Source: an uncultured Oscillospiraceae bacterium (GTDB lineage Bacteria > Bacillota > Clostridia > Oscillospirales > Oscillospiraceae). From it: a stretch of DNA of 64,000 nucleotides. Under the pieces are notes generated by a model. That model had not been told where the DNA came from, ran no database searches, and saw only the letters and a list, made by a program, of their open reading frames with translations. The stretch spans positions 1 to 64,000 of the forward strand of contig CANRIF010000001.1 of the NCBI GenBank assembly GCA_947630645.1, in the 5' to 3' direction. Shown piece by piece: positions 48,753-64,000 of this stretch. How positions within the stretch are numbered: position 1 is the first letter of the stretch; each line of letters opens with the position of its first letter. A program made the translations under genes and the position numbers.

Positions 48753-49739
48753 TTATTCAAAGGTCACGTTGGCGGGAAGGTACTCCAGAATATACTCGAT
48801 GTGGTCTATCTCCTGGCTCAAAGCGATCAGATACTCGTAATCCACGCTCTCAAATCCGTCCAGCCAGTTCATGATGCCGGCATAGACCGCGTCCATGATC
48901 TCCTTGTCCGGGGAAGCGGGAACGTAGTCATCCCGGACAGGCGCAGGCGGCTCACCGGTGAGAGTGCTGATGCAATAATTGGTGAATGCTTCATCGAAAT
49001 ACCGGAACGTGCCCGGGTCGGTGGGCCAGACAAGGGCCGCCGGGTCGATGCCGTTGGGCGTCAGATATTCGTCCTCCACCGCTTTGCCGATATAGGTCAG
49101 CAGCTCCTGGAGGTCCTCCTCCGTCACCTCGTCCTCCGCCGTCTTGGCGGGCCGTTTCTCGCCGCCGGAGAGAAGTTCCTCTATGAACGACTCATACTTC
49201 CCTTCCATGTCGGTGGTCGTATTGCCGAACAGGCTCAGGAAGAGATCGTCTGTTCTGTCCCCGCTGATCTGCTGCTGTTCCAGCCAATCGGAGACGGCCG
49301 CGACCACCTCCAGCTGGCTTTCAGTCCCCAGATAGCCATTCGTATCCGCGCAGATCGACTCGGCGGCGCCTGGGCCTCCGTTGCCTCCATCCAGAATATC
49401 CGTGATGGCGTCAGGGTAGGTCGTCAAGAGCCGCTCCATCGTCAAGCGAATGTACTCGAAGGCGTTGTCGATGTCCTCGCGCTCAAAGCCGCCGATGGCA
49501 TCCGCCAGGGCCTGCATATCTTCCTCGGTGAGAGCGTAGTCGTTCAGCTCTTCCTCCGAAGGCCCGGCGTCACCGTGGCCGTGTGCGGCGTCGTTTTTCG
49601 CTACCCATTCCAGAAACTCGTCCCACTCCATCTCGCTGGGATCGACATCGGAAGTCCCATCGCCCGCCGCGAAGGCCCCGGTCCCCAGAGACAGGACCAG
49701 GCACAGGGCAAGGAGGGTCGCTACTGTTCTTTTCTTCAT
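48753..49739 (-). CDS. secreted acidic protein of unknown function
   Basis: Signal peptide MKKRTVATLLALCLVLSLGTGAFAA; strongly acidic mature region; no family recognised. Confidence 0.8.
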   Translation of the reverse strand: MKKRTVATLLALCLVLSLGTGAFAAGDGTSDVDPSEMEWDEFLEWVAKNDAAHGHGDAGPSEEELNDYALTEEDMQALADAIGGFEREDIDNAFEYIRLTMERLLTTYPDAITDILDGGNGGPGAAESICADTNGYLGTESQLEVVAAVSDWLEQQQISGDRTDDLFLSLFGNTTTDMEGKYESFIEELLSGGEKRPAKTAEDEVTEEDLQELLTYIGKAVEDEYLTPNGIDPAALVWPTDPGTFRYFDEAFTNYCISTLTGEPPAPVRDDYVPASPDKEIMDAVYAGIMNWLDGFESVDYEYLIALSQEIDHIEYILEYLPANVTFE

Positions 49740-49764
49740 CTTTTGCTTTCCTTTCCCGATCAAG

Positions 49765-50079
49765 ATTACAGCCACCGTCAGAAAGGAAGTTTATATCCGG
49801 CGGTGTCATGCTGCGCTGTCCCAACGGTACTCGCCCGCGGGAACAGGCTTTTGATACCTGCCCCGCGAACTTTCCCGCCGAAACAACAAAGGCGGCGCAG
49901 GGTAAAACCCCACACCGCGCACAACACAACACAAAAGCCGCACAACCCGCCCTTGTAAAAAGCCAAGGGAACAGGTATAATGAGCCTTGGGCGCTGAAAA
50001 GCTGTGTAGGAGGTTCGCGCTCCTGCATAGGGCCGTGAGGTGCTGCTATCACCTTGCGGCCCGCCTTTGTTATTCCGCT
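49765..50079 (-). ncRNA. candidate structured RNA or long structured 5' leader (class not identified)
   Basis: Consecutive perfect or near-perfect stems (plus-strand coordinates): 50030-42/50050-62 (13 bp), 50005-12/50020-27 (8 bp), 49950-55/49964-69, 49900-02/49908-10, a three-way junction 49811-15/49896-900 enclosing 49836-47/49857-67 and 49875-79/49891-95, and 49773-77/49801-05; minus-strand promoter TTGCAC-N17-TATAAT just upstream. Confidence 0.55.
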
Positions 50080-50085
50080 ACTGCC

Positions 50086-50114
50086 ATTATAGCGCGTTGT
50101 TTTCTTGAGTGCAA
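50086..50114 (-). promoter_or_regulatory. sigmaA-type promoter on the minus strand driving the structured RNA
   Basis: Reverse strand TTGCAC (50114-50109), 17-nt spacer, TATAAT (50091-50086). Confidence 0.65.
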
Positions 50115-50189
50115 GAGTTTTTCCGACACGCGCCGACCATACAAAGCAGACCCGGGCGGGAGCATCGTTTTGATGCTCCCGCCCGGTTT
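50109..50189. repeat. 81-bp direct repeat, copy 1 (contains terminator-like hairpin)
   Basis: gtgcaagagtttttccgacacgcgccgaccatacaaagcagacccgggcgggagcatcgttttgatgctcccgcccggttt; one mismatch to copy 2. Confidence 0.92.
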
Positions 50190-50256: not shown

Positions 50257-51513
50257 GTGCCGGGGAAGCTGACGCAGCCGAAGGTGCGGCAATATAGGAA
50301 CTGGCTCGGCCATGATATCCTCTTCGGCGCGTATTCCTATGTATACGACGAAAAGAGCCGCGTCCTGCTGGACCGGCTTTTCACGCTGCTGGAGCAGATC
50401 GCGCCTGCCGGGGAGGATGGTGCGCGGACGCTGTGGTTTCGGGCGGAGCGCGGGCCGATTGAGGACTATGGCGAAGCGGACGAGCTGATCGCGGAAGGTG
50501 AATTCACAGACCGGGCGGCGTTCGTGCAGGCCTGGGAGCGGGATTTCCCCGACGAGGTCGCCTGGTACGCGTTCTCCGCCATCGAGCGGAAGGAGGAGCG
50601 GTTCCGGGCCGTCTTACTGGGCCACCGGCTGGTGATCGTGCAGGACCAGAACCGGGAGATGTGCGACTATCCGGCGGACATCTCAGAGTTCGTGCAATGG
50701 CTGGTCGATTGCGCCGGGGAGTGCATAGAGATGCTCCGGGCCGGCACATACAATGACTATGTCCGGGAGCATCTGCCGCCGCAGCATAGGGTGGGGACGC
50801 TCCGCCGCCAGGACTATTGGGACATCTGGCCGGAGGAAAAGGCGGCATTTTTTTGGGACACCTCCGCAGAGGATGTTGCCGCGTTCCTCCGGCTGGCCGC
50901 GGCGCAGCCGAAAGAACGGAGCGCATTCACGCCTCGGCTGGCGGCCATGACGGCGGGCGACTTCTTCCGGTTCTGCTCATTGGGCTACGCGGCCAATGGC
51001 TATCCTGCGCGGCGCCTGTCCCCAAAAAAGCAGTACCTTCGATTTGCCGACGGGCGCGACGAGGGGCTGACAGGCATCGACGAGAAGTCCCCCGAGGCGT
51101 TTTATGCCTGGCTCACTACCAGGCACGGCGGGGGGCATCCGTGGGAGGTGTGCCAGGGCGGTGATTCGACCCATATATCCCTTTATGTGGTCCATGACAG
51201 CGGCGGCTATTGGCTCCGTCTGGCCGGAAGCGCCGTGAACCGGACCATGGAGACGGTGCGGTTTTATCTCGCTCTTTGCCGGGCGGGGGTCCCCGTGTAT
51301 CTGGACGAGGCGGACATTCTGGCAGAGCGCCTTTTGGGGACGGAACAGATCGGCGTTGTGCCGGAGGGCGCGAGGCCCGAAGCCGGGGAGGGATATTTCC
51401 CCGGGCAGAGGATCATCGCGTTCATGAACCTGCCGGAAGAGGACCGGGAACAGTTCGTGCGGCGCTGTGATTGGCAGCCGATCGCCGAAGCGTCGCTGCT
51501 GTGCGCGGACTGA
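50257..51513 (+). CDS. hypothetical protein, 418 aa (GTG start)
   Basis: Long ORF with promoter, bracketed by two copies of the 81-bp repeat; no recognised domain. Confidence 0.7.
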   Translation: MPGKLTQPKVRQYRNWLGHDILFGAYSYVYDEKSRVLLDRLFTLLEQIAPAGEDGARTLWFRAERGPIEDYGEADELIAEGEFTDRAAFVQAWERDFPDEVAWYAFSAIERKEERFRAVLLGHRLVIVQDQNREMCDYPADISEFVQWLVDCAGECIEMLRAGTYNDYVREHLPPQHRVGTLRRQDYWDIWPEEKAAFFWDTSAEDVAAFLRLAAAQPKERSAFTPRLAAMTAGDFFRFCSLGYAANGYPARRLSPKKQYLRFADGRDEGLTGIDEKSPEAFYAWLTTRHGGGHPWEVCQGGDSTHISLYVVHDSGGYWLRLAGSAVNRTMETVRFYLALCRAGVPVYLDEADILAERLLGTEQIGVVPEGARPEAGEGYFPGQRIIAFMNLPEEDREQFVRRCDWQPIAEASLLCAD

Positions 51514-51536: not shown

Positions 51537-51617
51537 GTGCAAGAGTTTTTCCGACACGCGCCGACCATACGAAGCAGACCCGGGCGGGAGCATCGTTTTG
51601 ATGCTCCCGCCCGGTTT
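51537..51617. repeat. 81-bp direct repeat, copy 2
   Basis: Same as 50109-50189 except an A-to-G change (catacGaag); hairpin CGGGCGGGAGCATC...GATGCTCCCGCCCG followed by TTTTGT. Confidence 0.92.
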
Positions 51618-63124: not shown

Positions 63125-63326
63125 CTGGGCGCGTGCCCCCATATTTTATTTAGGTCTTACGCCGTTACTCCTCTACCATAGCGGCGCGGGACCGTAAAAA
63201 AGGAGGATGACCCTTCCGCCGGGCCGGCGGTGCGGCAGTGTGGAGACCTGTCGTAAAGTGCGGGGAGTTTCGCTCTTCCCGGACAAGGGAGTATTTGCGG
63301 AGGCATTGCTCCTACGGCTCAAGCGC

Positions 63327-64000
63327 ATGGCAACTGTTACTCTCAAAGGCATTAAGAAGGTCTACGACAACAAGGTGACCGCCGTCCACGACTTCAACCT
63401 GGAGATCGCGGACAAGGAGTTCATCGTCCTGGTCGGACCCTCCGGCTGCGGCAAGTCCACCACCCTGCGGATGGTGGCTGGCCTGGAGGACATCACCGAG
63501 GGCGACCTCTACATAGGCGAAAAGCGGGTCAACGACGTAGAGCCAAAGGACCGGGACATCGCCATGGTCTTCCAGTCCTACGCCCTGTATCCCCATATGA
63601 CCGTCTATGACAACATGGCCTTCGCCCTGAAGCTGCGTAAGATGCCCAAGGCGGAGATCGACAAGCGGGTGAAGGAGGCTGCGGCCATCCTGGACATCAC
63701 CGAGTACCTGGACCGGAAGCCCAAGGCTCTGTCCGGCGGCCAGCGGCAGCGTGTGGCCATCGGCCGCGCCATCGTGCGTGAGCCCCAGGTGTTCCTGATG
63801 GACGAGCCGCTGTCCAACCTGGACGCAAAGCTGCGTAACCAGATGCGCGCCGAGATCATCAAGCTGCGCCAGCGCATCGACACCACCTTCATCTACGTCA
63901 CCCATGACCAGACCGAGGCCATGACCCTGGGCGACCGGATCGTGATCATGAAGGACGGCTTCATCCAGCAGATCGGCACCCCCCAGGAGGTGTTCGACGA
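63327..64000 (+). CDS. sugar ABC transporter ATP-binding protein (MsmK/UgpC-like), truncated by the window end
   Basis: [64 protein letters not shown]...[37 protein letters not shown]; open to 64000. Confidence 0.95.

Follow-up and report, generated by a model that had tools for sequence, protein, structure and literature searches.

A multi-copy leader RNA of gut Oscillospirales with a predicted antisense RNA gene on its opposite strand

Introduction

Plasmid copy control provides most of what is known about transcription attenuation by antisense RNAs, to which a few single cases can be added. In plasmid attenuators of the pT181/pIP501 type, a leader with a terminator and a pre-emptor pairing is combined with a short countertranscribed hairpin RNA, which is made from a promoter inside the leader and whose loop sequence sets specificity (PMC3753616 for pT181); in plasmid antisense systems, changes in the loop and the upper stem set this specificity (PMC3753616). 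The RnaG/icsA system of Shigella, a single system on one virulence plasmid, uses an antisense RNA encoded within the leader, kissing loops and premature termination of a surface-protein mRNA (PMC5394118). A third relevant description is the SLH motif, a riboswitch candidate reported from 80 examples, with hosts among the Synergistaceae, Clostridia and Negativicutes; some 60% of these examples precede SLH-domain genes (Stav et al. 2019, PMC6429828). In the part of that paper's text on which we draw, the motif is published as a ligand-binding candidate and no antisense gene is mentioned (PMC6429828).

Here we describe a structured leader RNA at positions 49740-50114 (minus strand) of a 64,000-nt stretch of DNA from an uncultured Oscillospiraceae bacterium ("the window"), one of three copies in the source genome. 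Like the pT181/pIP501 leaders, it combines a terminator-like hairpin, a putative pre-emptor strand and an internal promoter for a predicted countertranscript with variable loops. Unlike these leaders, which precede a rep gene, it is chromosomal, occurs in many copies per genome and lies before secreted or surface protein genes; its antisense RNA would have three hairpins and matches nothing in Rfam, plasmid antisense RNAs included. The mechanism proposed here resembles that of RnaG/icsA, which differs in being confined to one plasmid locus. We consider it likely that this element, chromosomal and present in many copies, attenuates transcription under the control of its own antisense RNA, a mechanism that we infer from comparison of its copies.

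Results and Discussion

A structured leader present in many copies

The original prediction described a minus-strand TTGCAC-N17-TATAAT promoter followed by a multi-hairpin RNA. The promoter is located as claimed (Table 1), about 340 nt of leader lie between this start and the ATG at 49739, and the layout is conserved: of 99 diverse members, 91% have a -35/-10 pair that ends 3 to 11 nt before helix P1, compared to 6.6% of random positions. The single-sequence fold of the window leader is more stable than that of its dinucleotide shuffles (z -5.5, 0/100), which, together with the covariation among homologues described below, confirms that the RNA is structured.

An initial DNA search of 60 relatives detected the leader in 28 genomes, nearly all from one genus and often with many copies per genome, and delimited a conserved core of about 235 nt. 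A covariance model was built after collecting 90 copies and more distant relatives. By our own count from the table of its matches, the genus holds 158 copies in 25 of 35 genomes, with up to 16 per genome, and the distribution is patchy, with no copies in six genomes of at least 90% completeness. Of 297 genomes across the order, 42 carry the leader, usually in one to four copies, and these represent 27 of the 149 genera sampled; outside the order it is rare. When a pattern search was compared with the covariance model, 79 of 80 pattern matches were confirmed. Named carriers are rabbit-gut Oscillospiraceae MAGs, Flintibacter muris, Flavonifractor sp. An82, Dysosmobacter, Agathobaculum and Butyricicoccus, and cultured carriers exist in Flintibacter muris DSM 110149 and Flavonifractor sp. 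An82. The carriers outside the class (G922, G898, G934) have no LpxC and so give no indication of being Negativicutes.

No Rfam family scored above its gathering threshold on either strand of the element, whether in the window copy, which was also scanned at permissive thresholds, or in its relatives and distant members. The library scanned includes HEARO and the plasmid ctRNAs as well as raiA, 6S, OLE, ROOL and GOLLD, the classes that the original prediction had singled out for this search. Judged by sequence comparison, the element is a real multi-copy regulatory RNA situated before secreted and surface protein genes of gut bacteria.

Table 1. Features of the window copy and their basis (window coordinates)
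Feature	Position	Strand	Basis or remarks
Sense promoter	50086..50114	-	TTGCAC 50114-50109, 17-nt spacer, TATAAT 50091-50086; predicted start ~50080
S1, 5' strand of closing helix P1	50066..50077	-	Transcript 5' end; P1 covariation under tree-based null
P2 hairpin	50062-50050 / 50042-50030	-	Hypervariable loop; covariation
P3 hairpin	50005..50027	-	Most variable loop of the element; covariation
P4 hairpin	49993..50002	-	Alignment; covariation at helix top
P7 terminator-like hairpin, GCGGUGUGGGG/CCCUGCGCCGC	49892..49918	-	Covariation, wobbles, pattern scan
S2, 3' strand of P1, U-rich tract after P7	49879..49891	-	T-richness
P8 hairpin	49815..49887	-	Strong; 5' arm overlaps S2
Antisense promoter, TTGTAA-N17-TATAAT	49953..49981	+	Comparison and pattern scan
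Predicted antisense RNA	49988..50072	+	~85-90 nt; P4', P3', P2' and short closing helix, then U-rich tail
Downstream gene	48756..49739	-	327-aa acidic protein, N-terminal signal peptide MKKRTVATLLALCLVLSLGTGAFA, no Pfam family

Covarying helices and a mutually exclusive pair

In 30 diverse copies, the helices hold 77 alignment cells in which both sides have changed, compared to 25 in shuffles and 11 to 17 in slid controls. Under a tree-based null, in which each column was simulated on the tree of 99 members, 20 of the 21 best column pairs lie in P1, P2, P3, P4 or P7, and the covariation proposed earlier as a check on the structure is thus present in all five helices. Two of the stems originally seen by eye correspond to consensus helices backed by this comparison, the 13-bp stem (50050-50062/50030-50042) to P2 and the 8-bp stem (50020-50027/50005-50012) to P3. 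The three-way junction drawn at 49811-49815/49896-49900 does not survive: it is without covariation, and 49896-49900 is the 3' strand of the conserved hairpin P7. Comparison also added elements absent from the original list, namely the closing helix P1, P7, P8 and an antisense promoter. The statement that no terminator precedes the ATG at 49739 holds for the stretch between P8 and the ATG, but the terminator-like P7 (49918-49892) lies inside the leader, and a second terminator-like hairpin is found on the opposite strand (50030-50062, +).

The sense promoter adjoins the 5' strand of P1. The U-rich tract after P7 doubles as the 3' strand of P1. A run of 9 nt with six or more T occurs there in 93% of members, compared to 2.2% of random places; the window copy of the tract, CUUUGUUGUUU, is moderately U-rich at most. 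Because the 5' arm of P8 overlaps S2, P1 and P8 are mutually exclusive. In shuffle tests, which ignore relatedness, S2 prefers its own S1 over those of other members (z -19) and likewise its own P8 partner (z -9), with flat controls in both cases.

This competition has the form of a metabolite or signal riboswitch, in which the P1-closed multi-helix domain would bind a ligand and P1 would compete with P8 (and P7) as the expression platform. A junction-domain P1 is indeed set against an expression-platform hairpin, since the 3' strand of P1 can pair with the 5' end of the transcript or, alternatively, with the arm of P8 that lies before the ribosome-binding site; conserved stretches that look unpaired are present; and in one lineage (L242, L244, L245) P8 covers the Shine-Dalgarno sequence, pairing with the ribosome-binding site itself. 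We nonetheless regard a riboswitch as unlikely, on account of what the opposite strand holds.

A predicted antisense RNA gene inside the conserved core

The most conserved of the seemingly unpaired leader stretches, CATTATA and CAAG, read TATAATG and CTTG on the opposite strand, where they form the -10 and -35 boxes of a predicted antisense promoter at fixed spacing; this argues against a riboswitch. In this TTGNNN-N17-TATAAT promoter the best spacing is exactly 17 nt in 91 of 99 diverse members, and at most two mismatches to TTGACA/TATAAT occur in 85 of 99 members, compared to 25 of 990 shuffles. The spacer is near-random (pairwise identity 0.38, against 0.96 for the -10 box). A few copies (L082, L127, L111) lack a clean antisense promoter.

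A transcript from this promoter would traverse P4, P3 and P2 before stopping opposite the A-rich S1, whose complement supplies the U-rich tail of the predicted antisense RNA. About 79 nt are predicted up to the end of P2', to which the tail is added, and the P2' hairpin with the U-tract behind it is a candidate terminator. The tail is T-rich in 87% of members (background 11.5%), and the RNA folds into three hairpins in 91 of 99. Its closing helix prefers its own partner (z -7.9) in a shuffle test that ignores relatedness, and the fold of the window copy reaches z -3.9. An independent plain pattern scan of the window also recovered the plus-strand promoter (49953-49981) and terminator (50030-50062), along with a minus-strand terminator at P7. 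These data suggest that the conserved core would encode a second gene, a small predicted antisense RNA, on the opposite strand. The original interpretation is thereby extended in two respects: the element is a multi-copy family, and about half of its conserved core is a separate predicted antisense RNA gene.

Wobble pairs indicate which strand each helix serves. What is a G.U pair in one RNA becomes an A.C mismatch in its complement. Counted on the leader strand, P2 shows 181 A.C and only 11 G.U, and P3 166 and 2, while the ratio is reversed in P7 (4 A.C, 183 G.U) and P1 (19 A.C, 95 G.U). P2 and P3 are therefore kept as antisense-strand helices, and P1 and P7 as leader helices. In the window copy, P2 contains two A.C mismatches on the sense strand and forms an unbroken 13-bp helix on the antisense strand. 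At the level of sequence, this asymmetry separates the two predicted genes independently of transcript data, and the constraint on P2 and P3 as antisense rather than leader helices again counts against a riboswitch.

The P2 and P3 loops behave quite differently from their stems. In 153 pairs of genus copies with 85% identity or more, 53% of the positions in the P3 loop and 31% of those in the P2 loop differ, against 0.0 to 0.1% in the P3 stem and flank. Both loops are shared in 0 of 21 close pairs within one genome, and the P3 loop in 1 of 21 (few pairs); between genomes, both loops are shared in 6 of 132 close pairs and the P3 loop in 19 of 132. By analogy, this divergence looks like that of the specificity-setting loops of plasmid antisense RNAs. 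Aptamer loops are normally not the most divergent part between close copies, a further point against ligand binding. A leader peptide translated from the conserved ATG in CUAUGCAGG was also considered and rejected: the length of the P3 loop is not divisible by three, and the ATG has no ribosome-binding site before it.

A proposed model of antisense-controlled attenuation

The element contains predicted parts of an antisense-controlled attenuator: a countertranscript promoter inside the leader, a stem-loop countertranscript with its own terminator, and a leader terminator before the gene. In the mechanism that we favor, the sense promoter would start the leader, whose helices P1 and P7 are under constraint on the sense strand. 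As long as antisense RNA is absent, the 3' strand of P3 (CUCCYACACAGC; CUCCUACACAGC in the window copy), the putative pre-emptor or antiterminator strand, would pair with the 5' strand of P7 (GCGGUGURGGG), blocking the terminator and allowing transcription of the downstream gene, which usually encodes a secreted or surface protein. The antisense RNA would bind the nascent leader via the P2 and P3 loops and sequester the P3 strand, whereupon P7 would form and transcription would end before the gene. The variable loops would serve as an address for each copy, preventing cross-regulation among the paralogs of one genome, and P1 versus P8 would be a second exclusive pair, probably belonging to the read-through state. 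On this view, each copy of the leader would probably be switched off by its antisense RNA, much as copy number is controlled in some plasmids. The steps that we infer are termination, binding of the antisense RNA and independent addressing.

In the putative pre-emptor pairing, the 3' strand of P3 is complementary to the 5' strand of P7 in all lineages and is covered exactly by the predicted antisense RNA, and their duplex has a mean of -12.9 kcal/mol, compared to -6.3 for P3 itself, although the associated shuffle tests ignore relatedness. The P3:P7 pairing shows no significant covariation under the tree-based null because it is mostly invariant, and a C.A stands at one position in most members. 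The exchange pairing between the 5' strand of P3 and the 3' strand of P7 gave a weak signal (z -2.0 and -1.2).

Tentatively, and with rather more doubt than confidence, we extend this model to whole genomes. Up to 16 leader-plus-antisense cassettes per genome would each control one surface-protein gene via a private kissing-loop pair, each surface protein would be set on its own, perhaps in a bistable on/off fashion, the loops would diversify like plasmid incompatibility loops, and a published riboswitch candidate would be half antisense gene. If true, a widespread chromosomal self-addressed family would be a new way for gut Oscillospirales to regulate each surface gene separately, as well as a natural library of orthogonal attenuators. 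It would also warn that a conserved "riboswitch candidate" can conceal an opposite-strand gene. The cultured carriers make the question directly testable.

Genes behind the leader and movement of the cassette

As originally described, the window leader precedes a gene for a secreted acidic protein (Table 1). More generally, a signal-peptide gene starts within 260 nt downstream of 108 of 147 copies, compared to 94 of 1520 random places (6%), and several of the remaining copies precede miscalled secreted proteins or double-glycine peptides. BspA-type leucine-rich proteins predominate within the genus (26 of 75). Outside it, S-layer homology domains are present in 17 of 60 downstream proteins, and leucine-rich repeats and copper-amine-oxidase N domains also occur; in distant lineages the leader is found before family-less small proteins, a TnpB and an integrase region as well. 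The downstream genes have no pathway in common, which is a final argument against a metabolite riboswitch.

With its Clostridia hosts and SLH-domain genes downstream, the element resembles the SLH motif, of which the larger share noted above precedes such genes; unlike that motif, it has no Negativicutes member among the carriers found here. On the grounds of its downstream genes and some of its hosts, the sense RNA may correspond to the SLH motif, a guess to which we lean slightly. The originally proposed novelty stands as far as Rfam is concerned and is uncertain for the sense motif, given the like gene association and overlapping distribution. If the two are identical, the sense motif is already known and its riboswitch reading needs revision; if they are not, the sources searched contain no description of any part of the element.

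Some copies lack a gene altogether. In L119 and L259 a terminator directly follows the RNA, with no gene behind it, so that these appear as stand-alone versions, and L243 is likewise without a gene. The first two would suit a structured ncRNA pair that stands alone and does not regulate downstream genes, these being expressed by leaky read-through. We find this quite improbable: in nearly all copies P1 is followed, at a distance of about 80 nt, by a codirectional gene with a good ribosome-binding site, and P8 is retained past the terminator. Of the two possibilities left by the original prediction, a long 5' leader or a processed ncRNA, we favor the leader, with antisense-controlled attenuation the likely function rather than that of a free-standing ncRNA.

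Leaders that are 93 to 95% identical precede unrelated genes with unrelated flanks, and their shared sequence starts some 10 nt ahead of the -35 box and extends as far as the ribosome-binding site or the codons of the signal peptide. This pattern, together with the burial of the 5' end by P1, is what an mRNA-stabilising or translation-enhancing leader spreading with its promoter as an expression cassette would produce. That reading strikes us as scarcely credible, as it leaves the antisense promoter, the terminators and the variable loops unexplained. Leaders shift between loci, yet no element ends or target duplications were found around them, and a mobile element was rejected as an identity for the cassette, with no matches in phages or plasmids.

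Several individual copies have unusual neighbors. L113 precedes a TnpB gene; judged by eye, a small ORF and a tyrosine-recombinase-like gene lie behind L110, and a small ORF and a TnpB/Cas12-like ORF behind L257. A mobile-element or plasmid origin of the cassette is possible from these neighbors. Three complete genomes of one genus, with several leader copies in each, have downstream proteins of about 97 aa without known family (L242, L244, L245, L249, L250, L252, L254), and there the partner of P8 is the ribosome-binding site. A family search with the small proteins among the products of the genes behind L113, L110, L257 and L242 matched none. Behind L020, L023 and L061 lies a bacteriocin-like peptide of about 60 aa with a double-glycine motif (..LEAVSGGEK). 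In L087 and L088, from two species, the leaders are 100% and the upstream flanks 98% identical, and the downstream genes differ, reflecting either exchange of the coding sequence or an assembly fault.

At the border of the window cassette, an 81-bp direct repeat with a strong palindromic hairpin (50109-50189 and 51537-51617, 99% identical) has its end precisely at the -35 box of the sense promoter. A 418-aa gene (50257-51513, +) lies between the repeat copies, as if inserted there by recombination. Elsewhere in the window, a malK-I RNA (RF03069) is found at 63150-63332 (+), with a score well over threshold.
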